From a virus: a DNA stretch of 45,352 nucleotides. Where the stretch lies: positions 1 through 45,352 of the IMG/VR virus record IMGVR_UViG_3300043410_000355. One strand, given 5' to 3'. A program made the position numbers and the translations under genes. Shown in pieces: positions 9,346-42,621 of the stretch. Position 1 is the first letter of the stretch. Each line of letters starts with the position of its first letter. The notes below the pieces were generated by a model. The model worked only from the letters and a program-made list of their open reading frames with translations, was not told the origin of the DNA and did not search any database.

Positions 9346-10026
9346 ATGGAAAACATCCAACCACCACAGAATGGCACAGTAACTGTGGCAGAACAAGCAG
9401 AAAACCTACCTTCGCCACTAATTGGAGACGCGAAGCCAGAAGAATATAACTTTGACTACTCTCCAGTCGAAGAAACGTTTAATCGTCACCTATTCCCAAC
9501 ACTATTTGCGAGCTATAAGTTCACTGACTGGGAAAAGATCGCGCAACCATTGATCGACCTATCTAACGGTTGGGATGGTCCAAATGCGGGTGGCGATATT
9601 ATGGAACTAGACCATCCAGCAGTTAACCGTCTAAAAGAAATCATCTACGAAATCTGTGAAAACGTCCAGCTTTCTAAGGATGATAACGGTCGTACTCCAG
9701 TTATTGTTGGCTCCAACGTTATTTTCCAACAGAAGGGTGAACACATCCCTCTACATAACTACGAGTTTTCTACTCTAGTTTTCACTTTCGTTGCTAACGT
9801 TGGTCAAACTCCACCGATGACTTACTTCGCAGACCCACGCGGTGGTGTCCAAGCGATCCGTAAGATGGCTGCACAGAACCTAGTTGGTACTAGCTTCGGT
9901 ATCAGCAGCCGTGTTGGTGAAATCTATGTTTCTCCAGGCTACGCTCAACGTTATGTTGAGACTAACCTAGAATCAGAAACCCATGTGCTCGTTAACGTTC
10001 GTGTAAACTTTTTGATGATCACTTAA
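9346..10026 (+). CDS. 2OG-Fe(II)-oxygenase-like protein with degenerate metal site
   Basis: 226 aa. The region 120-226 follows the double-stranded beta-helix pattern of phage 2OG-Fe(II) oxygenases (2OG-FeII_Oxy_5 type): a strand ending KGEHIPLHNYEFSTLVFTF, then MTYFADPRGG with the usual 'DPR', then VGEIYVSPGYAQRYVETN and a final strand LVNVRVNF. In active members the first motif is HxH or HxD and the second contains another His (FPsyl-H-V). Here the first His is kept (LHNY), but the second ligand appears to be Tyr, and the distal His is Gln/Arg (GYAQRY). It may thus be catalytically dead, or use different ligands. It is the only plus-strand gene between two minus-strand blocks, has its own late promoter, and its 3' end overlaps the PP-loop gene tail to tail. 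Confidence 0.6.
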   Translation: MENIQPPQNGTVTVAEQAENLPSPLIGDAKPEEYNFDYSPVEETFNRHLFPTLFASYKFTDWEKIAQPLIDLSNGWDGPNAGGDIMELDHPAVNRLKEIIYEICENVQLSKDDNGRTPVIVGSNVIFQQKGEHIPLHNYEFSTLVFTFVANVGQTPPMTYFADPRGGVQAIRKMAAQNLVGTSFGISSRVGEIYVSPGYAQRYVETNLESETHVLVNVRVNFLMIT

Positions 10027-11076
10027 AATATGCTTGTTAACGTAGTGGACTGAATAGTCCTCTAGTAAAAATAACCAAGACGCAAGGGGGTTTCCTAAAG
10101 AGGAGACCCCCTTTGGTTTATTCCAAGCGTAATAACTATCTCCACTATACTCTTCGATCAACTCTCTCATAACCCAACGGTGAGTTAGAGGTTTACCGAC
10201 ATCTTTCGTGAATGGCTCTTTAGTTGTGATAACATAGCGCTGAAAGTCGTCAGTGTTATAGAAGTGATATTGGTTATCTTGCTGGTTCGTCGCGATTCGA
10301 CTAGAATACTCTGCTGTATACCAATCATAGTTGAAGATCAACCACCAACGGAGATCTCGGAGAGTCTCAATCTTTTTAGGGCTAGCTTTAATAGATGGAA
10401 GCAAGAACTCGTGTAGTTCATCATCGATACACTTAGTGTAGTCGATCAACGGATCATCGTTATTGAATTGGTGATGGAAGAAGGATACAGAGGTTTTAAT
10501 CTTACCAGTGATAAAGTCGTCCACTGGACCAAATAGTTGGTTACCGTAGTATCCAGTGACGAAGATGCTGTTTGGATCTCCATCGTCGAAGTCTCTTGTA
10601 GAAGAAACTTTGAAATTATACTTAACGCCAGAATTCTTAATCTTGGTGTCGAATAGATTACCAGATTCTAGAATAGAACTGTATGTTCCATATACAGTAA
10701 TCTGACTCGGGTCATTGACGTGTTTTAGTAGTGCAAAGAGTGCGAGTGTGCTATCGATACCACCACTCCAAACTACGCTGATCGGTTTATCTAAAGCAAC
10801 CAATTCTTTACAACGATCATCAACACACTCCCTGAAAGACTTATTAAACCCAGCATCAATCTTTGGGATCTGCAATAGTCCAGGTTTGATATTCAGGAAG
10901 TGGGGAGTTTGTCCTGTTCTGTCATAGACAGCGTTCAGGTTCATCTTATGTTTCTCAAAGAAGTTATACAACTCCTTATGGTTTGGAGCCAAATATTCTT
11001 CGATTGGTTCTATCTTGTTATTGATTAGGTCTAAAGAACGGATCAAACCAATGTTGTAGTATAGCAGTTGCTTCAT
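9973..11076 (-). CDS. PP-loop ATPase, asparagine-synthase-like (possible amide ligase)
   Basis: 367 aa. Residues 101-117 carry the PP-loop VVWSGGIDSTLALFALL, which binds ATP pyrophosphate in adenine-nucleotide alpha-hydrolases (asparagine synthetase, GMP synthetase, QueC, TilS). A second segment at 172-183 (FVTGYYGNQLFG) matches the 'TGEGADELFGG' region of asparagine synthetase B, with the acidic residues replaced. There is no N-terminal Cys glutaminase; the first about 100 residues are a short unrelated domain. The family activates a carboxylate with ATP for amide formation; lasso-peptide cyclases and beta-lactam synthetases are relatives. The substrate here is unknown. The gene follows a terminator hairpin, has GAGGA before its ATG, and its last 54 bases overlap the 3' end of the plus-strand gene. 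Confidence 0.7.
   Translation of the reverse strand: MKQLLYYNIGLIRSLDLINNKIEPIEEYLAPNHKELYNFFEKHKMNLNAVYDRTGQTPHFLNIKPGLLQIPKIDAGFNKSFRECVDDRCKELVALDKPISVVWSGGIDSTLALFALLKHVNDPSQITVYGTYSSILESGNLFDTKIKNSGVKYNFKVSSTRDFDDGDPNSIFVTGYYGNQLFGPVDDFITGKIKTSVSFFHHQFNNDDPLIDYTKCIDDELHEFLLPSIKASPKKIETLRDLRWWLIFNYDWYTAEYSSRIATNQQDNQYHFYNTDDFQRYVITTKEPFTKDVGKPLTHRWVMRELIEEYSGDSYYAWNKPKGVSSLGNPLASWLFLLEDYSVHYVNKHILSDHQKVYTNVNEHMGF
10084..10113 (+). terminator. Strong hairpin downstream of the 226-aa gene, inside the PP-loop ORF
   Basis: Arms 10084-10096 and 10101-10113 pair over 13 positions (GGGGGTTTCCT against AGGAGACCCCC plus two A-T pairs, one G-T) around loop AAAG. The plus strand then reads TTTGGTTTATT. 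It is a likely terminator for the late plus-strand transcript that starts at 9300. It lies within the coding part of the minus-strand PP-loop gene (around KPKGVSSLGNP), so one sequence serves both. Confidence 0.6.
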
Positions 11077-11092
11077 AATATCCTCAAAATGA

Positions 11093-11116
11093 AAAAGGGA
11101 GCCGTAGCTCCCTTTT
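11093..11116 (-). terminator. Rho-independent terminator after the TRAP-like gene
   Basis: Ten-bp stem AAAAGGGAGC/GCTCCCTTTT with loop CGTA (11103-11106 on the plus strand). On the minus strand the hairpin runs into TTTTT, giving a textbook intrinsic terminator 18 bases after the stop at 11134. It separates the solute-binding gene from the PP-loop gene. Confidence 0.75.
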
Positions 11117-11123
11117 ATTTATC
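11116..11123 (-). promoter_or_regulatory. Candidate late promoter (GATAAATA)
   Basis: The minus strand reads GATAAATA, one change from TATAAATA, 40 bases upstream of the PP-loop gene ATG. It directly abuts the terminator stem, so transcription would start within or just past the hairpin. A terminator-plus-promoter arrangement is plausible but unproven. Confidence 0.4.
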
Positions 11124-11133
11124 ACTCAACTAA

Positions 11134-12081
11134 TTAGTGTAGTTGAATCTTCTGGACTAGACCAGGAGTGAAGTAGTCTGCAAACTTTTCGTAAACAGAA
11201 GCAGTAACTTCTTTGAACTTCTTCTGTTCTGTGTCGCTCATACGAACAACTTCAACACCCTTCTCTGCACATTCTGCTAGAATGTTTGGAATGTCAGCAA
11301 CAGATTCGCGACGCTCTGCGCGAGCAGCATTGAACGCTGCAGTAGCCATGATCTCACGAGTTTCTTCGTCGAACTGAGCCATGAAGTCTTTATTGACGAT
11401 GATAGAAGTCAAGAACAAGCTGTGAGCAGTATCGTTAACAACCTTGAAAGACTTGTACTGGTCAAGAGGGAAGATACGAACGTAAGTAGATTCGCCAGCA
11501 GAGATAACACCCTTGTCTGCGTACTCGTTCATTTCTTCTAGAGCGATGTGCTCTTTTGGCTCTGCGCCTAGTAGTTTGAATGTTTCAACAGCGACTGGAG
11601 AGCGAGATGTACGAACAGTCTGCCCCTTCCAAGAATCGACAGTGTCAGCACGGAAGTTCGCTGGAACAACACGGTAACCACCAGAGTAAGTGAAAGACAT
11701 AGCAGTGATATTGCTATTCTTAGAAACACCTGCTAGTAGTTCAGTACCAACTTCACCTTCCAAAACTGCGTCAGCGTGAGCGTGGTCGCGGAATAGGAAA
11801 GGTAGGTCTAGAGCGTGTAGATCTTTATTGTAGTCTGCAAGCCAAGTAGTGTAGATGTGGCTCATTTCGATCGCGCCAGTGTCGATCAATTGCATCAAGT
11901 CATTCTTGCTGACTTTCTTGCCAGCGTTATACTTGTTAGTGTAATCAGTCAAAGAAAGAACTTCGATGTCAAACTTGCCACCAGTTTTTTCGTTAACTTC
12001 TTTAGCGAAACGCTCGGCGACTTTTAGAAATAGACCGATTGGTTCGTGGGCGATGACCCATTTTACGTGTTTCTTTTCCAT
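11134..12081 (-). CDS. TRAP-transporter-type solute-binding protein (DctP family) without signal peptide
   Basis: 315 aa. Resembles DctP/TRAP periplasmic binding proteins along its length: KVAERFAKEVNEKTGGKFDI near the N-terminus, then SYSGGYRV-like 'TYSGGYRVVPANFRADTV', WKGQTVRTSRSPVAVETFKL with LGAEP (this segment holds the Arg that grips a carboxylate ligand in the family), and GVISAGESTYVRIFPL. Cellular members carry a signal peptide or lipobox and feed DctQ/DctM permeases. Here the protein starts MEKKHVKWVIAHEPIGLFLK with no hydrophobic leader, and no permease genes are nearby. It should stay in the cytoplasm or be packed with the virion. GGAG precedes the ATG; the 108-aa gene ends 12 bases upstream. 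It may be a free ligand-binding or scaffold protein. Confidence 0.8.
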   Translation of the reverse strand: MEKKHVKWVIAHEPIGLFLKVAERFAKEVNEKTGGKFDIEVLSLTDYTNKYNAGKKVSKNDLMQLIDTGAIEMSHIYTTWLADYNKDLHALDLPFLFRDHAHADAVLEGEVGTELLAGVSKNSNITAMSFTYSGGYRVVPANFRADTVDSWKGQTVRTSRSPVAVETFKLLGAEPKEHIALEEMNEYADKGVISAGESTYVRIFPLDQYKSFKVVNDTAHSLFLTSIIVNKDFMAQFDEETREIMATAAFNAARAERRESVADIPNILAECAEKGVEVVRMSDTEQKKFKEVTASVYEKFADYFTPGLVQKIQLH

Positions 12082-12093
12082 TTAGGATTCTCC

Positions 12094-12420
12094 TTATTTT
12101 CTTAAATACTTAAGATGTTCTGCACACTTAAGATCTAAACTCCACACCTCACCAGACTCTGTTACGTCTACTACAATAATCGGAAGTTTTAACCTTATGA
12201 TCCGTTCTTTATATTTATAAACAAACTCTTTTTGCTCCTGTGTTGCATTGAGCAAAAAATCTGGTATTTGGATGCTGACATTATTACTTTGGAACCCATT
12301 TTCCAGTGAGTTGTGCCAGAAAACATCAGCTAATGTTCTCTTATTTAGCTTCGAGTCGATTGAACCGTATCTAGGATAACGGTTCACATCCCAAATGTAA
12401 CAGTTTAGGAAAGGTTCCAT
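12094..12420 (-). CDS. Unknown 108-aa protein translationally coupled to the radical SAM gene
   Basis: 108 aa, starting MEPFLNCYIWDVNRYPRYGS. No family recognised. Its ATG overlaps the radical SAM stop as TAATG, so the two are almost certainly translated together and it is a candidate partner of the enzyme. The stretch WDVNRYPRYGSID...TLADVFWHNSLEN loosely recalls the non-cysteine parts of a SPASM domain (a residue pattern G-I-...-L-x-D-V-F/W-x-x-S), but it has only two cysteines, so it could not hold an iron-sulfur cluster by itself. The C-terminal half (LPIIVVDVTESGEVWSLDLK) looks like a beta-alpha-beta fold. A peptide-recognition role is possible but unsupported. Confidence 0.6.
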   Translation of the reverse strand: MEPFLNCYIWDVNRYPRYGSIDSKLNKRTLADVFWHNSLENGFQSNNVSIQIPDFLLNATQEQKEFVYKYKERIIRLKLPIIVVDVTESGEVWSLDLKCAEHLKYLRK

Positions 12421-13883
12421 TATCGAGGCTCTACTGGAACCTGTACGATAGGAATGTTAATTGGCTTGCGCACTTTCCAAGACTTAACGCCAGTCTTCAT
12501 ATACTCGATATCGATAACTGGGATGGAGGTAACACCGTCGAAACGGATACGTTCACCTTTGATCTCAGTCAATACTAGACCGTCTGTCATCTTAAACAGA
12601 GAAGCGCTAAGCATAGCTAGGTTATACCAGAAAAGGTTCTCACACGCCTGTTCCCAATACTGATCCTCTAGGAACAAACACGCACCCTGACACAACTGAA
12701 CGACTGGACAAGAAGGGCATTCCTTACGAGTAGACCAGTGGTAAGAGTTAGTTAAACGGATGTTGTCGAAATCCTCGATATTACCGATGTTATGTTTAGT
12801 TAGGGAAGACGTGTTCTGACAAGTGGTAACGTTACCCTTCATATCGATGGCAATGTTGTCTTCTCGATCCATACCACACTTCTGACCGACTGCTTCAGCA
12901 GGGCGTCCATAGACGATAGATTCAAAGAAAGACTTAACTTTCTGGTGAACCGTCCAGCTAAACTGATTCTTATTATCGATTGTTTCTTCGAACAATGAAT
13001 GAAGAATTTCCTTCTTCTCATCAGTTGTTTGAAGAGAGTGATTCATACCAGAGTCGTCATATGGAAGCATTAACTCTTCTGTAGTGACTTGAAGTTCGCG
13101 CTGGTCAACACCTGGATTCTCGAATCCCTGATGTGCCTTGTTTAGCTTCTTCTGGATGAAATCTCTAACTGCAGGGATTGAAACGTTCTCACGAGTCAAA
13201 ACGCAGTTGAATGTGAAGCGCATACTACCCATAGTCTTAAGGGCGTATACGATAGCATCTTTTGCAGTTGGTTCATCTAATGGGTCTGGACCACGATTTT
13301 GCGCATGGAGTGGACCATCGTGAGACATACCGATAGAAAAACCCATACGGTTGAACCAATCAACCTTATCCCTAGTCAATAGAGATCCGTTGGTAACCAT
13401 CATAAACTGAGCGTTAGGGTAAACCTTCTTAACCTTCTCAGCTAGTGGCTTTAGAGTTTTCCAGTAAACGAGTGGCTCTCCACCCCAGAACTCTAAACGG
13501 AATCGGTCATATGAATCGAACGCGAAGTTCTCTTTCATCTTGCGTACCAATTCCTCAGCGTCATCTGGACCGCCGACTGGATCGTGTGGTTGGTGGGCTT
13601 GATTGCAGTAAGAACACGCGTAGTTACACTTAAGACCCATCGTGATCTTAAGTGTAACAGGTTTCTTTGATTTCTTGCCGTGTAAGGCTGGGTCGTGTGG
13701 GTTGGTAATGTTTGCAGGTTCCCACACCTTAGCGTTCATTTGATATTGGAGACCCTTACTGATAAGATCAAGCGAGGGTCTCTCGTGGTTATGTTCCCAA
13801 TACATCTCAGATGTCATTGGGTCATAAACCATATTCAACGTCACATCATTAGCCCCTTGCAGGACTAGTGTAAATTTACTCAT
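12420..13883 (-). CDS. Radical SAM/SPASM protein (anSME-like maturase)
   Basis: 487 aa from the ATG at 13883, which has AAGGAT upstream; a TTG two codons earlier is less likely. The radical SAM motif is C86-NYA-C90-SY-C93 (CX3CX2C), which binds the [4Fe-4S] cluster that cleaves S-adenosylmethionine. WGGEP (133-137) and TNGS (164-167) are further core motifs. The C-terminal part is a complete SPASM domain: C336-X13-G-X4-C355, then C389-X2-C392-X5-C398-X3-C402 and C414, enough for two auxiliary clusters. This layout is that of peptide/protein maturases (sulfatase maturase anSME, sactipeptide and ranthipeptide enzymes, PqqE). Such enzymes modify Cys, Ser or neighbouring residues of a polypeptide. 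The likeliest substrate here is the Cys-rich protein two genes upstream (inference). Confidence 0.9.
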   Translation of the reverse strand: MSKFTLVLQGANDVTLNMVYDPMTSEMYWEHNHERPSLDLISKGLQYQMNAKVWEPANITNPHDPALHGKKSKKPVTLKITMGLKCNYACSYCNQAHQPHDPVGGPDDAEELVRKMKENFAFDSYDRFRLEFWGGEPLVYWKTLKPLAEKVKKVYPNAQFMMVTNGSLLTRDKVDWFNRMGFSIGMSHDGPLHAQNRGPDPLDEPTAKDAIVYALKTMGSMRFTFNCVLTRENVSIPAVRDFIQKKLNKAHQGFENPGVDQRELQVTTEELMLPYDDSGMNHSLQTTDEKKEILHSLFEETIDNKNQFSWTVHQKVKSFFESIVYGRPAEAVGQKCGMDREDNIAIDMKGNVTTCQNTSSLTKHNIGNIEDFDNIRLTNSYHWSTRKECPSCPVVQLCQGACLFLEDQYWEQACENLFWYNLAMLSASLFKMTDGLVLTEIKGERIRFDGVTSIPVIDIEYMKTGVKSWKVRKPINIPIVQVPVEPR

Positions 13884-13914
13884 TAACAATCCTTATAATA
13901 TAGAACAGATAATG

Positions 13915-13921
13915 TATTTAG
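13915..13921 (-). promoter_or_regulatory. Candidate late promoter (CTAAATA)
   Basis: The minus strand reads CTAAATA, 31 bases before the radical SAM ATG and overlapping the end of the 382-aa gene. The distance matches the perfect TATAAATA boxes at 9265 and 37381, so late expression of the radical SAM gene with the structural genes is plausible. Confidence 0.45.
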
Positions 13922-13922
13922 G

Positions 13923-15071
13923 TTACTCGATCTCGACCCATAGTTCAGCCCAAGAAGTGAACTCACCAAGATTCAATTTCAACTTGAAGTATTCACCAGA
14001 AATTAGACCGATAGTATTGACAATGACGCCTTCCACGCCACCAAAACCTTGAGCCATCTTATCAGCTGGGTGGTTGTGGTTTGCGATGAACTCTTGAACA
14101 TATACGTTAGGGTTCTGTGGATCATATTCGTTTGTTAGTCTAGTCTTAGAAGCGACACCGTTGACGCACTCTACATCGAATGTAACGAATGGTCTGCTAT
14201 TGATGATGTTGTGGATTCTAGAACCGAACATAACACGAAGAATGTGTTGGTCAGAAGCTGGTAGTTTAACATAAAAACGGTTACCGCTCATCTGAGTAGA
14301 TTGAGCGACTTGTAGTTCTGGGTTAATACCAGCAGTATTGACTGGTTGCTTCTGAGTTAGCTGTCTGAAGTTTTCTGCCTTAGCAGTTGGCTTAACTGTT
14401 GGATATGCAGAAGATACGATCTTACCATTAGCATCTAGGACTTCGAACGTCACCATAACTCTAACGTAAGTATTACACCAGAATTCATATTCTTTTGGTG
14501 TAACTGCAGTGACCTGTTGATTACCGACTTCTAGAACAGTGTCCATCAAGTCGAATTGATAGTCTTCAACAAAAAACTGAAGAGTAGATCCTTCGAACCC
14601 GAGAGACTTAAAGAAACTATCAATGACAAATAGTGGAGACAACGGAGTATTTGCGTTATAACGATACTCGTTCAAGTTATAGTAGATCTTTTCGTGAGAG
14701 TTGCTACCATCAACATATTGTTTAGAGACTTCATATACGTCGATAGGATCGCTGATGGTCTTGGTATCATCATTGTACTCGATAATCCACTTGTAGTTAT
14801 CAGTCTTTTGAACGAAGTCTGCTTCTGTGAATTCACGAGTAGCAACAACCTTTAGATCACCAGTTGTGTGTGGATCTCTTAGGATAGTATCTGTGCCTTC
14901 TGGAAGAGATTCATCTAGATCTGGGTTTGGTGGAATGACTTCTTCTACTTTAACGCTGATAGTTTTAGTATCAGCGTTAAAACCCATAGTTACACGGTGA
15001 CCTGTATCGTGCCCGTAGGTATCTTCAGTACCTTCGTTACCTTTAATTACAGTCTTAAATAATTTTAACAT
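13923..15071 (-). CDS. Unknown 382-aa virion-like protein in the modification cassette
   Basis: 382 aa; begins MLKLFKTVIKGNEGTEDTYG. I recognise no family. The composition is soluble and beta-rich with many short strands (RVTMGFNADTKTISVKVEEV, MSGNRFYVKLPASDQHILRV), no membrane segment or signal peptide, and a C-terminus GEYFKLKLNLGEFTSWAELW that resembles lectin- or jelly-roll-type virion decoration proteins. It contains two cysteines only. It stands between the Cys-rich gene (17 bases upstream) and the radical SAM gene (39 bases downstream), with GAGGATCC before its ATG. It could be a structural carrier of the Cys-rich protein or an independent decoration protein. Confidence 0.65.
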   Translation of the reverse strand: MLKLFKTVIKGNEGTEDTYGHDTGHRVTMGFNADTKTISVKVEEVIPPNPDLDESLPEGTDTILRDPHTTGDLKVVATREFTEADFVQKTDNYKWIIEYNDDTKTISDPIDVYEVSKQYVDGSNSHEKIYYNLNEYRYNANTPLSPLFVIDSFFKSLGFEGSTLQFFVEDYQFDLMDTVLEVGNQQVTAVTPKEYEFWCNTYVRVMVTFEVLDANGKIVSSAYPTVKPTAKAENFRQLTQKQPVNTAGINPELQVAQSTQMSGNRFYVKLPASDQHILRVMFGSRIHNIINSRPFVTFDVECVNGVASKTRLTNEYDPQNPNVYVQEFIANHNHPADKMAQGFGGVEGVIVNTIGLISGEYFKLKLNLGEFTSWAELWVEIE

Positions 15072-15088
15072 TTATAGGATCCTCAGGA

Positions 15089-15475
15089 TTAGCAGTTACA
15101 GTTACATGCGCAGTTACAGTTACATGCGCAGTTACAGTTACAGTTAGTTCTATACCATTGGAAACCACCCATTGTGTTATCTTGGTTATCGTGACGGATA
15201 CCGTCTGTAGAACCAGAAACTGCAGCACCGATAGAAGTGTTACGGAAGATGTTAATACGTCTATCAGTAGTTGCACCCCAACCTAAGTCGGCAGCATCAC
15301 AGTTACCGCAGGCACAGTTACAGTTACCGTTACATGCGTTACATGCGCAGTTCCATCCGCAGTTAGCGTTTGGTTCGGTATAGCCTCTGTTACCTGCATC
15401 GTAGTAGTTCCAGAATAAGTTTACAACGTCTGTACCGTCAGAACGTCTAAAACCTGTTGCACCGTAATATGCCAT
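15089..15475 (-). CDS. Cysteine-repeat protein, candidate substrate of the radical SAM enzyme
   Basis: 128 aa with 17 cysteines in two clusters. Residues 1-37 (MAYYGATGFRRSDGTDVVNL then FWNYYDAGNRGYTEPNA) form a cysteine-free head. Cluster 1 (39-59) reads NCGWNCACNACNGNCNCACG with a final NC. Residues 60-110 are again cysteine-free, and cluster 2 (111-128) is the C-terminus NCNCNCACNCNCACNCNC. Every cysteine is preceded by Asn or Ala. There is no signal peptide. It lies between an S74 fibre gene (2 bases upstream) and the 382-aa gene, with GGAGA before its ATG, so it is expressed with virion proteins. Possible roles: substrate for thioether or other radical SAM chemistry, a metal-binding tip, or a disulfide-locked beta stack. 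Confidence 0.8.
   Translation of the reverse strand: MAYYGATGFRRSDGTDVVNLFWNYYDAGNRGYTEPNANCGWNCACNACNGNCNCACGNCDAADLGWGATTDRRINIFRNTSIGAAVSGSTDGIRHDNQDNTMGGFQWYRTNCNCNCACNCNCACNCNC
15092..15145 (-). repeat. 18-bp tandem repeat encoding the Asn/Ala-Cys tail
   Basis: On the minus strand, after one leading AACTGT, the unit AACTGTAACTGCGCATGT is repeated 2.67 times without a mismatch up to the stop codon. It encodes the NC/AC tail of the Cys-rich protein. Perfect identity at the DNA level suggests recent expansion by slippage. Confidence 0.9.
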
Positions 15476-15477
15476 GT

Positions 15478-16656
15478 TTAATTCTCCAGTTTAATTAGTC
15501 GAGCGTTTAGCTCTTCAATAGTCTTTTGTTGTTCCTTAATCGCTTCAACTAACAAACCGACCATGTTAGAGTAAGAAACGGTCTTATAACCAGTCTCAGT
15601 AGTTCCAACGACCTGCGGTAGAACAAGTTCAACTTCCTGAGCGATTAAACCGATTTCATCGTGTCCATCTCTGGTATATGAAACGCCTCTTAGACCATTA
15701 ACGACGCCCACAGCATTATTTAGTGTTTGGACGTTTGCCTTTAATCTTGCATCAGAAGACTGAGTGAATGTATCAGCAACAACAGCTTTGAATGTGTTTG
15801 TTGTACCAGTCCAAGTGTTATTACCACTTAGAGATGGGACATCAGATCCTAGATCGATAGTTGGATTACCAGCAACTGCATCACCGTTAGTGATAACAAC
15901 GCGAGTTGATGTTCCAACTAGAGAACGAATAACCGCAGTACCATCACCAGTTCTAGTGTATAAACCCTTATCGGTCGTTCCAGTAAGACCAGAGATAGCA
16001 GTTAGGTTAGCGTTATATGCTTGTACGTCTGTACCGATCGCTAGACCGAGTGTAGTTCTTGCGTTAGAAGCAGCTGCAGAAGCAGCCAAACCGCGCATAT
16101 AAGAACTAACAGTATAAGTAGCAGCAGTGCCGTCACCAGTAAAATATGGTGCTGCATCTGCGGCAGATGTCACAGTAGCTAGAGCAGCTAGTTCCTTATC
16201 ATAAGCCTGTACGTCTGTACCAATAACTAGACCTAGAGTCGAGCGAGCACCAGCAGCAGTAGTTGCGCCAGTACCACCAGAACCGATGGCTAGGGAAGTA
16301 GTTAGTGTGATAGAACCGCTAGTGATAGCGGCAACACCAGAGAACGTACCAGAAAATGTAGCTGCAGTAATATTGTTAGCTGCAAAGTTACCAGAACCGT
16401 CACGGCGAACGATAGTGTTAATCGTGTTTGCAGTGTCTTGATTGTAACCGTCTAACAGGTCAGCATCTAATCCAGAGCCAGAACCATCGACAGTGATAAG
16501 TTTAGCTAGAACGTCGGCTGCAGTGTAAGAAGCTGCAGTCAAACCAGTTTGGAGTGCAGTACTGATATTACTAAAGTTAGCATCAACTTCGGCATTCGTT
16601 AAAGGGCTACCTTTGGTAGCTCTTAACGTGATTGAAGGTGCTGAAATGTTTGCCAT
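15478..16656 (-). CDS. Tail fibre with C-terminal S74 self-cleaving chaperone
   Basis: 392 aa. The N-terminus (MANISAPSITLRATKGSPLT followed by NAEVDANFSNIS) is a widespread fibre-attachment motif. The shaft is weakly repetitive (two copies of ARSTLGLVIGTDVQAYDKEL-like units at about 135 and 198). The last about 95 residues form an S74 chaperone (SSDARLKANVQTL...HDEIGLIAQEVELVLPQVVG...VSYSNMVGLLVEAIKEQ), paralogous to that of the 1237-aa fibre. In the family this domain trimerises the fibre, then cleaves itself off at Ser-Asp. AAAGGATCC precedes the ATG. It sits between the DUF4815 tail protein and the Cys-rich gene, and it may be the fibre that carries the Cys-rich protein (inference from adjacency). 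Confidence 0.85.
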   Translation of the reverse strand: MANISAPSITLRATKGSPLTNAEVDANFSNISTALQTGLTAASYTAADVLAKLITVDGSGSGLDADLLDGYNQDTANTINTIVRRDGSGNFAANNITAATFSGTFSGVAAITSGSITLTTSLAIGSGGTGATTAAGARSTLGLVIGTDVQAYDKELAALATVTSAADAAPYFTGDGTAATYTVSSYMRGLAASAAASNARTTLGLAIGTDVQAYNANLTAISGLTGTTDKGLYTRTGDGTAVIRSLVGTSTRVVITNGDAVAGNPTIDLGSDVPSLSGNNTWTGTTNTFKAVVADTFTQSSDARLKANVQTLNNAVGVVNGLRGVSYTRDGHDEIGLIAQEVELVLPQVVGTTETGYKTVSYSNMVGLLVEAIKEQQKTIEELNARLIKLEN

Positions 16657-40986: not shown

Positions 40987-42621
40987 ATGCCAAAAAGAAC
41001 CAGTAATAGCTCAGTTAATTCTAGCATTCGTCAACAGACTAAGTCTAACGACGAAGGGTTGAGTTCACTCCTAGAAGCGCAACAAGCGTCACTGGGGCAG
41101 TTGACTTCTATTCGTCAGCTTCTAGAGTTATCCAAAGAAAACCAGAAAAACCAAGCAGAGGCTGCTAAAGGCTCTGCTGTTGAGACTCAGCTTATCCTAG
41201 ATGAGTTGAGAGATATGGGTAAGACTGGTAAACGTCACATGAAGGATGACGAAGAACGTTTCAAGATCGACCAAGCTGGCTGGGACGCTGAAGCTAAGAA
41301 ACTAGCTGAACTGGCTAAGACAATGAACACAACTGGAAATATGTTCCAGGAGATGGGTAAGTCTTTCAAAGAAAAAGTTCAGAACGTTAAAGAGAAGACC
41401 AGCATTAAAGATGGTGGTCTAAAGCGCACTGTTCTTGGTGCATTGAACGTTGGTGGTGTCTTCAATAAGGCTATCGCTAAGTCTGAGTGGACTTCTCAAC
41501 AGAAGGCTATGGGGTTCAACCCATCTAAGGCTGATGCTGAAGGTGCATACAACGCCAGCAAAGATATGAAGTCTCACGAGGCTGAAATCGCTAAGTGGCA
41601 GAAGAAGACTGGTATCACTGACGAAGAAGGTATGCGTCGTACACCAGCTGGAGCTAAACTACTAGACAAACGTATTGCTCTTGGTGAACAAATGACCAAG
41701 TTTGATATGGGCGCGCAACGTTTCGACCCAACAGTTAAGGGTATGGTTAATCCTGATGCTGTTAAGAAAACTCCAACTGAAACTGCAGCTGAGAATACTC
41801 AGAATGAAGAAATGCAGATGGAAGGTGCTAAGACTCAAGAACACATGTCTGAGTTACTGGCTAAGATCGAAGAAAACACCCGCAAAGATGGCGCAGGTAG
41901 TGCAAAACCAGAGAAGGTTAAAGAAAAGGGATTTGGTGAAGGTCTAATGGACATGATCACTGGATTCTTGGGCGAAGGGTTTATGAGTGCTATTAAGTCT
42001 CTCTTCAGCCCTAAGACTATCCTAAAGTCTCTCGGTAAGGTATTCGCTATCGGTATGATCGTTGGTGCTTTGTTCGAAGGTATTACTGATGGTTTCGATG
42101 AGTTTATGAAGACTGGTGATATTGGTAAGGCTCTTGTTGCTGGTCTTGCAGGTATCGTAGACTTCTTAACATTCGGTCTATTTGACAAAGAAAAGATCAA
42201 AGAAGTAATTGGTGATATGGCTGGGTGGATCAATGATCATATCGTTAAACCATACGTAGACTTTATCACTGGAATCAAAGATAGTTTCTTAGCACTAATT
42301 TCTAATATTGGTATCCCAGAAATCAAATTCAAGATTCCTGTTATTGGTAAAGAAGTTGCTATTGGTCCATTCTATCCATTCAAGAGCGAAGGTGGTGGTT
42401 CTAAAACACCAGAAGCACCTGCTCCAACTTCTGCCAATGCAGTTGATCAGAAATCTGCTGATAATGCTGCAGCTGCGATTCCAGATGCTACTGGTGGTAA
42501 TAAAACTAACGTTGTTAATGCACCAGTCACTAACAACACTACACAGAATCAGATTATTCGAGCACCGATTCGAAATCAGGATTCTTCTGTCAATACGTAT
42601 ACGCGAACACGATACGCATAA
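40987..42621 (+). CDS. 29: Tail tape measure/hub protein gp29
   Basis: 544 aa (T4 gp29 is 590). Architecture: N-terminal about 300 residues largely helical and charged (LLEAQQASLGQLTSIRQLLE, LAKTMNTTGNMFQEMGKSFK), a central hydrophobic, Gly-rich block at about 315-400 (GFGEGLMDMITGFLGEGFMS, VFAIGMIVGALFEGITDGFD) that could form transmembrane or core helices, and a C-terminal disordered and Asn/Thr-rich tail (NKTNVVNAPVTNNTTQNQII). These features and the position after a frameshifting chaperone fit a tape measure, which sets tail length and enters the cell with DNA. Similarity to T4 gp29 is limited. It is the last gene of the plus-strand block. Confidence 0.75.
   Translation: MPKRTSNSSVNSSIRQQTKSNDEGLSSLLEAQQASLGQLTSIRQLLELSKENQKNQAEAAKGSAVETQLILDELRDMGKTGKRHMKDDEERFKIDQAGWDAEAKKLAELAKTMNTTGNMFQEMGKSFKEKVQNVKEKTSIKDGGLKRTVLGALNVGGVFNKAIAKSEWTSQQKAMGFNPSKADAEGAYNASKDMKSHEAEIAKWQKKTGITDEEGMRRTPAGAKLLDKRIALGEQMTKFDMGAQRFDPTVKGMVNPDAVKKTPTETAAENTQNEEMQMEGAKTQEHMSELLAKIEENTRKDGAGSAKPEKVKEKGFGEGLMDMITGFLGEGFMSAIKSLFSPKTILKSLGKVFAIGMIVGALFEGITDGFDEFMKTGDIGKALVAGLAGIVDFLTFGLFDKEKIKEVIGDMAGWINDHIVKPYVDFITGIKDSFLALISNIGIPEIKFKIPVIGKEVAIGPFYPFKSEGGGSKTPEAPAPTSANAVDQKSADNAAAAIPDATGGNKTNVVNAPVTNNTTQNQIIRAPIRNQDSSVNTYTRTRYA

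Follow-up and report, generated by a model that had tools for sequence, protein, structure and literature searches.

Why should a virus keep a gene for a radical S-adenosylmethionine (SAM) enzyme beside one for a cysteine-rich protein among its tail genes, and do the genes around this pair serve the same pathway? The question is raised by the IMG/VR record IMGVR_UViG_3300043410_000355, a virus record of 45,352 bp that was analysed at its full length (the window) and in which baseplate wedge, hub and fibre family matches identify a myophage tail region. An initial annotation had proposed seven adjacent genes at 9346–15475, flanked by fibres, as a candidate cassette with which the phage would decorate or harden its own adhesion structure; one of the seven, for a 382-aa protein, was counted there and given no name. 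The seven open reading frames (ORFs), here called CYS, G382, rSAM, P108, TRAP, PPL and OXY (Table 1), are confirmed, as are the flanking tail proteins, which match Peptidase_S74 fibre, L-shaped-fibre-assembly and fibre families. We conclude that the locus probably encodes a pair of components that mature a phage tail protein, joined by optional extras. The idea that the phage modifies its own tail thus survives for a core of two genes, whose pairing favours it, and not for the seven-gene cassette as a whole.

The first component is a tail-region structural protein with a terminal tract of alternating [Asn/Ala/Asp]-Cys and the second is a dedicated radical SAM/SPASM enzyme. Viral contigs were searched with a DNA pattern for NCNCNCNC, the enzyme being disregarded, and yielded at least 120 loci, 108 of them with the tract in an open frame; rSAM was present in 78 of these 108, mostly at 1e-90 or better. 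Among the loci listed, 47 ORFs have (NC)4 at the C-terminus and 4.5 kb or more of sequence downstream, and rSAM was nearby in 46 of them, the single miss being a spurious 64-aa frame. The controls gave no case, with 0/120 for viral loci with (NG)4 and 0/117 for bacterial loci with (NC)4. The bacterial (NC)4 tracts are mostly microsatellites, 78% consisting of one repeated hexamer; codons are homogeneous in 6% of tracts in viral rSAM loci, against 78% of the bacterial (AAYTGY)n repeats. Of 19 tract loci with no rSAM in the stored flank, 11 belong to genomes or records that have the enzyme elsewhere and eight are fragments of 24 kb or less.

The reciprocal search, which started from a 23-sequence rSAM alignment, returned at least 533 related loci in viral contigs, and the best 80 were kept; some of these overlap the 16 close-relative loci described below, and not all are independent phages. 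Of the newly fetched loci, 56 had 2.5 kb or more of upstream sequence. Under a strict rule, a tract lay upstream on the same strand in 53 of these, and the number rises to 55 of 56 with the fibres of L330 and L331, which end in NCNCVCNC and had been missed by an over-strict pattern. The sole plausible bacterial tract, in a Rhodospirillales metagenome-assembled genome (L145), appeared to lack rSAM owing to its short stored flank; the enzyme was predicted from the tract and found 0.65 kb downstream. Among 199 genomes from the order of this assembly, 12 carry the enzyme, the assembly itself included, and in a blind test an upstream Cys-tract protein was present in 10/10 other genomes with sufficient upstream sequence. 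In five of these 10, and in the assembly, a Hint domain follows the tract immediately; these bacterial rSAM–tract loci look like prophages. The counts bear out the initial annotation where it had seen a possible Cys-rich substrate side by side with a radical SAM/SPASM enzyme in a tail-fibre region.

The pairing spans myophages, siphophages and prophage-like bacterial loci. In the phage records searched, close relatives of rSAM among cultured phages are confined to the siphophages JWF (37%) and 2-1 (32%), both of Achromobacter. These phages encode a fibre-like protein whose NC tract, QNCNCDCNCNCSCFPAG..., is immediately followed by a Hint domain. In the region fetched from these two phages there is no homolog of TRAP, PPL, P108 or OXY, and since tract and enzyme are present without the accessories, we take the NC tract and rSAM as a unit. 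Lumi and Seuss, relatives of JWF, gave no match in the rSAM searches of phage records, and the tract was not found in their fetched tail regions. Furthermore, 13 records with TRAP or PPL and no adjacent rSAM were searched whole: a strong rSAM (129045–130421) is present in one of them, that of L572, and this record alone has an NC pattern (131290).

Closer to the window, a scan with its rSAM gave 16 viral loci of 71–93% identity. Gene order is kept in 13 of them (S74 fibre, CYS, G382, rSAM, P108, TRAP, PPL, OXY on the opposite strand, then the next fibre genes), and the remaining three end at a contig edge. Both Cys regions of CYS are retained in 11 distinct sequences. G382 is the least conserved gene, at 26–66% identity between close relatives, and in other loci the slot between tract and rSAM holds other genes; G382 is possibly a tail protein. 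Profile searches of Pfam, PHROGs and NCBIfam gave no convincing match for P108, G382 or CYS, and tblastn of CYS against cultured phages gave no match, in a program that masks such repeats.

Where does the tract lie, and what is it made of? It forms the extreme C-terminus in 77 of 136 distinct tract proteins and lies no more than 12 residues from it in 47 more (124/136); the other 12 include five Hint fusions, L031 with another domain and five apparently off-frame ORFs. The proteins that bear it are unrelated, namely S74-family fibres, collagen-like fibres and small proteins, with lengths of 71–711 aa, and many resemble fibres. The fibre of the window lacks a tract and is followed by CYS; in L046, L059 and L061 the tract is on the fibre itself and a CYS gene is not seen. 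The residue before each tract Cys is Asn in 71%, Ala in 15% and Asp in 8% of cases, the Asn figure being biased because tracts were chosen with at least two NC. Asn also precedes 74% of scattered Cys, and the figure for Cys as a whole is about 73%. Gly, at 12.8% in the background, precedes none of 594 tract Cys, an absence that is unaffected by this bias; residues with a beta-carbon hydrogen are thus preferred, which suggests chemistry at that carbon.

The tract and its surroundings also vary. At L628:4823-5869 the Asn-free tract YCSYCSYCTCACSDCSC stands before two tandem rSAMs, and the motif ATGFKIASGTDL is common to L628 and CYS. In L031 and L134 the NC tract is followed by an ICTELY/ICTKLF domain and not by a Hint domain. 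L026 and L067 encode a protein of 71–82 aa that ends in ACNCNCNCNC(T/S)RGIL, followed by three to four rSAM-like ORFs.

The enzyme itself matches the radical SAM profile PF04055 (1.5e-10) and phrog_1802 (7e-66), and its SPASM region scores 37.6 bits with TIGR04085, for which the cut-off is 27. The radical SAM cysteines (C88, C92, C95) and all seven of the SPASM region, a motif for two auxiliary clusters, are invariant across the alignment, although most of its rows are only 30–46% identical to the window rSAM. Its nearest named families are PapB, DynA, CcpM, SCIFF, anSME and QhpD, all far below their curated cut-offs (the best equivalog score is that of PapB, 78 of 340 bits), and its matches in the PDB are 8vpo, 4k36 and 4k37 (both anSME) and 5wgg. 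These nearest families are peptide or protein maturases. Thioether formation is common among them, and for this reason a thioether is our preferred reading of the product.

How might the two components work together? In the infected cell, rSAM would move along the tract and abstract a hydrogen from the residue that precedes each Cys, or from one nearby, and this residue would then be joined to the Cys sulfur, giving a rigid multi-thioether tip. The modified tip would join the tail and contact the host surface. In the window this tract belongs to CYS; related loci have it at the end of a fibre or collagen-like protein, or immediately ahead of a Hint domain. What the comparisons show is the anatomy of the system, where the tract lies and which residues it favours, and a pairing that is near-obligate. 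From the family of the enzyme, the tract is very likely the substrate of rSAM; on the same grounds, we place the thioether a little short of an even chance. Gene context makes it likely that the tract protein is built into the virion. A bolder and more tentative proposal, somewhat less likely than not, is that enzymes of this kind act on [Asn/Ala/Asp]-Cys tracts at the exposed C-terminal tips of tail proteins and make of them a new material, cross-linked or filled with metal, in some cases once the Hint domain has unmasked them. The chemistry would be unlike that of known ribosomally synthesized and post-translationally modified peptides (RiPPs), and the maturation of viral structural proteins in this way would form a widespread, undescribed class.

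A number of observations weigh against the two-component scheme. First of all, the gene-neighbourhood link indicates that tract protein and enzyme work together and does not specify a chemistry. Second, L287 has rSAM and 8 kb of upstream sequence with no recognisable tract, an unexplained exception. Third, Asn is not strictly required, as the tract of L628 has Cys without it, and the prevalence of Asn in the tracts is subject to the selection noted above. Fourth, the NC rule fits none of the tested recognition motifs of characterised radical SAM enzymes (CXPXR, CX3D/E). Finally, no RiPP recognition element (RRE) or leader was identified; the PqqD/RRE family had no match in Pfam or among the NCBIfam matches listed, the N-terminus of rSAM not having been folded.

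The motifs themselves led us to reject two specific assignments, sulfatase maturation and a ranthipeptide CX3D core, whose motifs are missing from the tract. The sulfatase-maturation motif CXPXR is not present in CYS, and C/S-x-P-x-R occurs in only 3/124 tract proteins. CX3D/E is absent from the terminal tract of CYS and found only in its internal cluster (CGNCD/CDAAD), and any such motif occurs in 48/124 tract proteins.

Could the cysteines instead hold a metal? CxC is a common metal ligand pattern, and Cys that alternate along the axis of a trimeric fibre tip might bind a metal or cluster, with rSAM aiding maturation or modifying the surrounding residues. The known iron sites of T4 gp37, P2 gpV and pyocin fibres are HxH motifs, with alternating residues contributed by three chains (PMC6116203), and the Cys tract alternates likewise and is terminal. 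However, the known metal sites of fibres need no dedicated radical SAM enzyme, so that the tight pairing wants an extra reason, and Asn and Asp form beta strands poorly. We regard such a metal needle, the main rival reading, as unlikely.

The single pathway proposed initially would have rSAM form thioethers, the PP-loop protein PPL form an amide or lactam and OXY hydroxylate; the TRAP-type protein would then serve as carrier. It has in its favour the gene order kept in the window's clade, the entry of a P108–TRAP–PPL block into rSAM loci more than once, and the beta-lactam-synthetase/asparagine-synthetase fold of PPL. Against it, most rSAM lineages in the tree have no such block, the block is found without rSAM or tract, and OXY has lost iron ligands. 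In a tree of 77 rSAM rows made by a quick method, the presence of P108, TRAP and PPL requires six, five and seven changes, respectively, and all three occur in large virus records that have neither rSAM nor tract. Thus, when the co-occurrence of the genes in relatives is followed, as had been suggested with the proposal, the Cys-rich and radical SAM genes keep together, and P108, TRAP and PPL vary independently of them. The seven-gene pathway is very unlikely, and we reject it because its members occur independently.

What, then, are the additional genes? P108 and PPL are a tight pair in the scans and TRAP is looser, all three being found also away from rSAM. In L128, L265 and L299, sister lineages next to the window's clade that are among the many without the block, rSAM is followed directly by OXY; the block thus seems to have entered between these two genes. 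The sequences indicate a separate accessory block, independently acquired, that joined several rSAM lineages. TRAP matches PF03480 over nearly its whole length (2.5e-43), and its best PDB match is 4p47 (5.9e-26). It starts directly at the mature domain with no apparent signal peptide, and it is 62–89% identical to its aligned homologs. Membrane partners (DctQ/DctM) had no match among the genes scanned.

PPL has both the SGGxDS motif of a PP-loop enzyme and, in its model, a synthetase fold. Its profile matches are only weak PP-loop ones (PHROGs, NCBIfam); its model, with a predicted local distance difference test score (pLDDT) of 84, resembles beta-lactam and asparagine synthetases (Z 14.3 over 192 residues, root-mean-square deviation 2.9), compared with Z 11.3 and lower for GMP synthetases. 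The 367-aa protein has no N-terminal nucleophile (Ntn, glutaminase-type) domain, as the best matches start at about residues 64–67 and align with the C-terminal synthetase domain. The model of P108 has no PDB match above Z 3.2 (Foldseek, VIA-align), which does not exclude an RRE fold. As a guess, and quite an unlikely one, PPL might attach to the tail a small acid bound by TRAP. Searches of cultured phage records gave no close relative of TRAP or PPL. In L472:1-12945, part of a 206,751-bp virus record, TRAP-like and TctC-like solute-binding proteins are encoded, in the absence of rSAM, with SDR, BKACE and PPL-like genes; this arrangement suggests that cytoplasmic binding proteins are reused in a metabolic-looking phage cluster.

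OXY was assigned as a 2-oxoglutarate (2OG) oxygenase, and this stands as a family resemblance, given by PHROG_81 alone (1.6e-9), and not for the conserved iron ligands. In the sequence alignment of the window's clade, 11/11 members have HxY in place of HxD/H and Arg in place of the distal His, so that only the first His is kept; the Arg lies in the context GYxxRYxETN in all 11. A hydroxylation step is therefore doubtful in the window, and OXY may be a non-catalytic or altered oxygenase, possibly a repurposed fold. Elsewhere, 2OG oxygenases of the PF13759/PHROG_81 kind, apparently intact, occur in 45/76 and 35/74 rSAM loci compared with 2/120 controls, rates somewhat inflated by model seeds that came from rSAM loci. 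Second rSAMs also recur, and at L120:5308-6042 a fatty-acid-desaturase-like gene lies directly upstream of rSAM, in the slot held elsewhere by the 2OG oxygenase.

Could CYS instead be a secreted RiPP-like toxin or signal and no part of the virion? It is a small Cys-rich protein beside an enzyme that resembles peptide maturases, but large tail proteins of fibre or collagen-like type have the tract as their end in many loci, the tail-fibre neighbourhood is constant, and none of the seven genes matches a protease or exporter family in Pfam, PHROGs or NCBIfam profiles; we consider it highly improbable. There is next to no chance that the tract is a low-complexity artefact, associated with rSAM by accident or through shared ancestry of one locus: (AAYTGY)n microsatellites do exist in bacterial genomes, but this reading is refuted by the mixed codons of the viral tracts, the tract-first controls, the reciprocal and blind tests, and the presence of tracts on unrelated proteins beside rSAMs only 30–45% identical to that of the window.

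The features of the locus are collected in Table 1. Elsewhere in the window, a 544-aa ORF at 40987–42621 (+) has no PHROG match.

Table 1. Genes and motifs of the cassette and the adjoining fibre, in window coordinates.
Feature	Position	Strand	Remarks
OXY, 2OG-oxygenase-like	9346..10026	+	PHROG_81 match
PPL, asparagine-synthetase/beta-lactam-synthetase-fold PP-loop enzyme without glutaminase domain	9973..11076	-	
PPL PP-loop SGGIDS motif	10750..10767	-	S104, G105, G106, D108, S109 invariant in alignment
TRAP, DctP-type solute-binding protein, highly conserved	11134..12081	-	PF03480
P108, 108-aa partner of PPL	12094..12420	-	AF2 model pLDDT 88; no PDB fold match; ATG overlaps rSAM stop (TAATG)
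rSAM, radical SAM/SPASM enzyme (phrog_1802)	12420..13889	-	ATG at 13883 more likely as start than TTG at 13889
rSAM CX3CX2C radical SAM cluster motif	13605..13628	-	Invariant in 23 diverse homologs
rSAM seven-Cys SPASM region (C338, C357, C391, C394, C400, C404, C416)	12642..12878	-	TIGR04085 match
G382, fast-evolving 382-aa protein between CYS and rSAM	13923..15071	-	No family match
CYS, 128-aa tail-region protein, 17 Cys	15089..15475	-	Probable rSAM substrate; no library family
CYS C-terminal (XC)9 tract NCNCNCACNCNCACNCNC, reaching last residue	15092..15145	-	
CYS internal Cys cluster NCGWNCACNACNGNCNCACGNC	15299..15364	-	N or A before nearly every Cys
Fibre with Peptidase_S74 end	15478..16656	-	Homologs elsewhere themselves carry NC tract

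Should the tract prove to be modified, phages would be using radical chemistry to make tips that are covalently hardened or carry metal, which would matter for adsorption, stability and the design of materials. The prediction of the substrate reaches single residues, and the pair is present in two cultured phages (JWF and 2-1), which makes the prediction directly testable.

Radical SAM enzymes that mature peptides are familiar from the bacterial natural products and from the maturation of enzymes. Searches of the open-licence literature on phage RiPPs, phage radical SAM enzymes and Asn-Cys repeats gave no description of a radical SAM maturase acting on virion parts, nor of the tract–rSAM pairing, and the parts carry only generic names in NCBIfam and PHROGs. 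We compare the locus with the systems that share one or other of its parts. The fibres with HxH iron sites have an alternating motif in common with it; here Cys takes the place of His, and the tract is longer, terminal and paired with rSAM. PPL shares the SGGxDS motif and fold of asparagine and beta-lactam synthetases, but has no Ntn domain and no sequence-family assignment. The DctP receptors of TRAP transporters share PF03480, whereas the window's protein lacks a signal peptide and the seven genes include no membrane subunit. The anaerobic sulfatase-maturating enzyme (anSME), the name given to the homolog in JWF, is likewise a radical SAM enzyme with SPASM; here, on the other hand, CYS has no CXPXR and no sulfatase is seen adjoining. 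The radical SAM/SPASM maturases of RiPPs (PapB, CcpM, the SCIFF maturase, QhpD) have the same CX3CX2C and SPASM, with a Cys-rich candidate substrate adjoining. They differ in that no short precursor with a leader, protease or exporter is seen here, and in that the candidate substrate belongs to a phage tail and ends in an [N/A/D]C tract that contains no CX3D core. The system is probably a known kind of maturation, that of the radical SAM/SPASM enzymes, in a new placement, the end of a phage tail protein.

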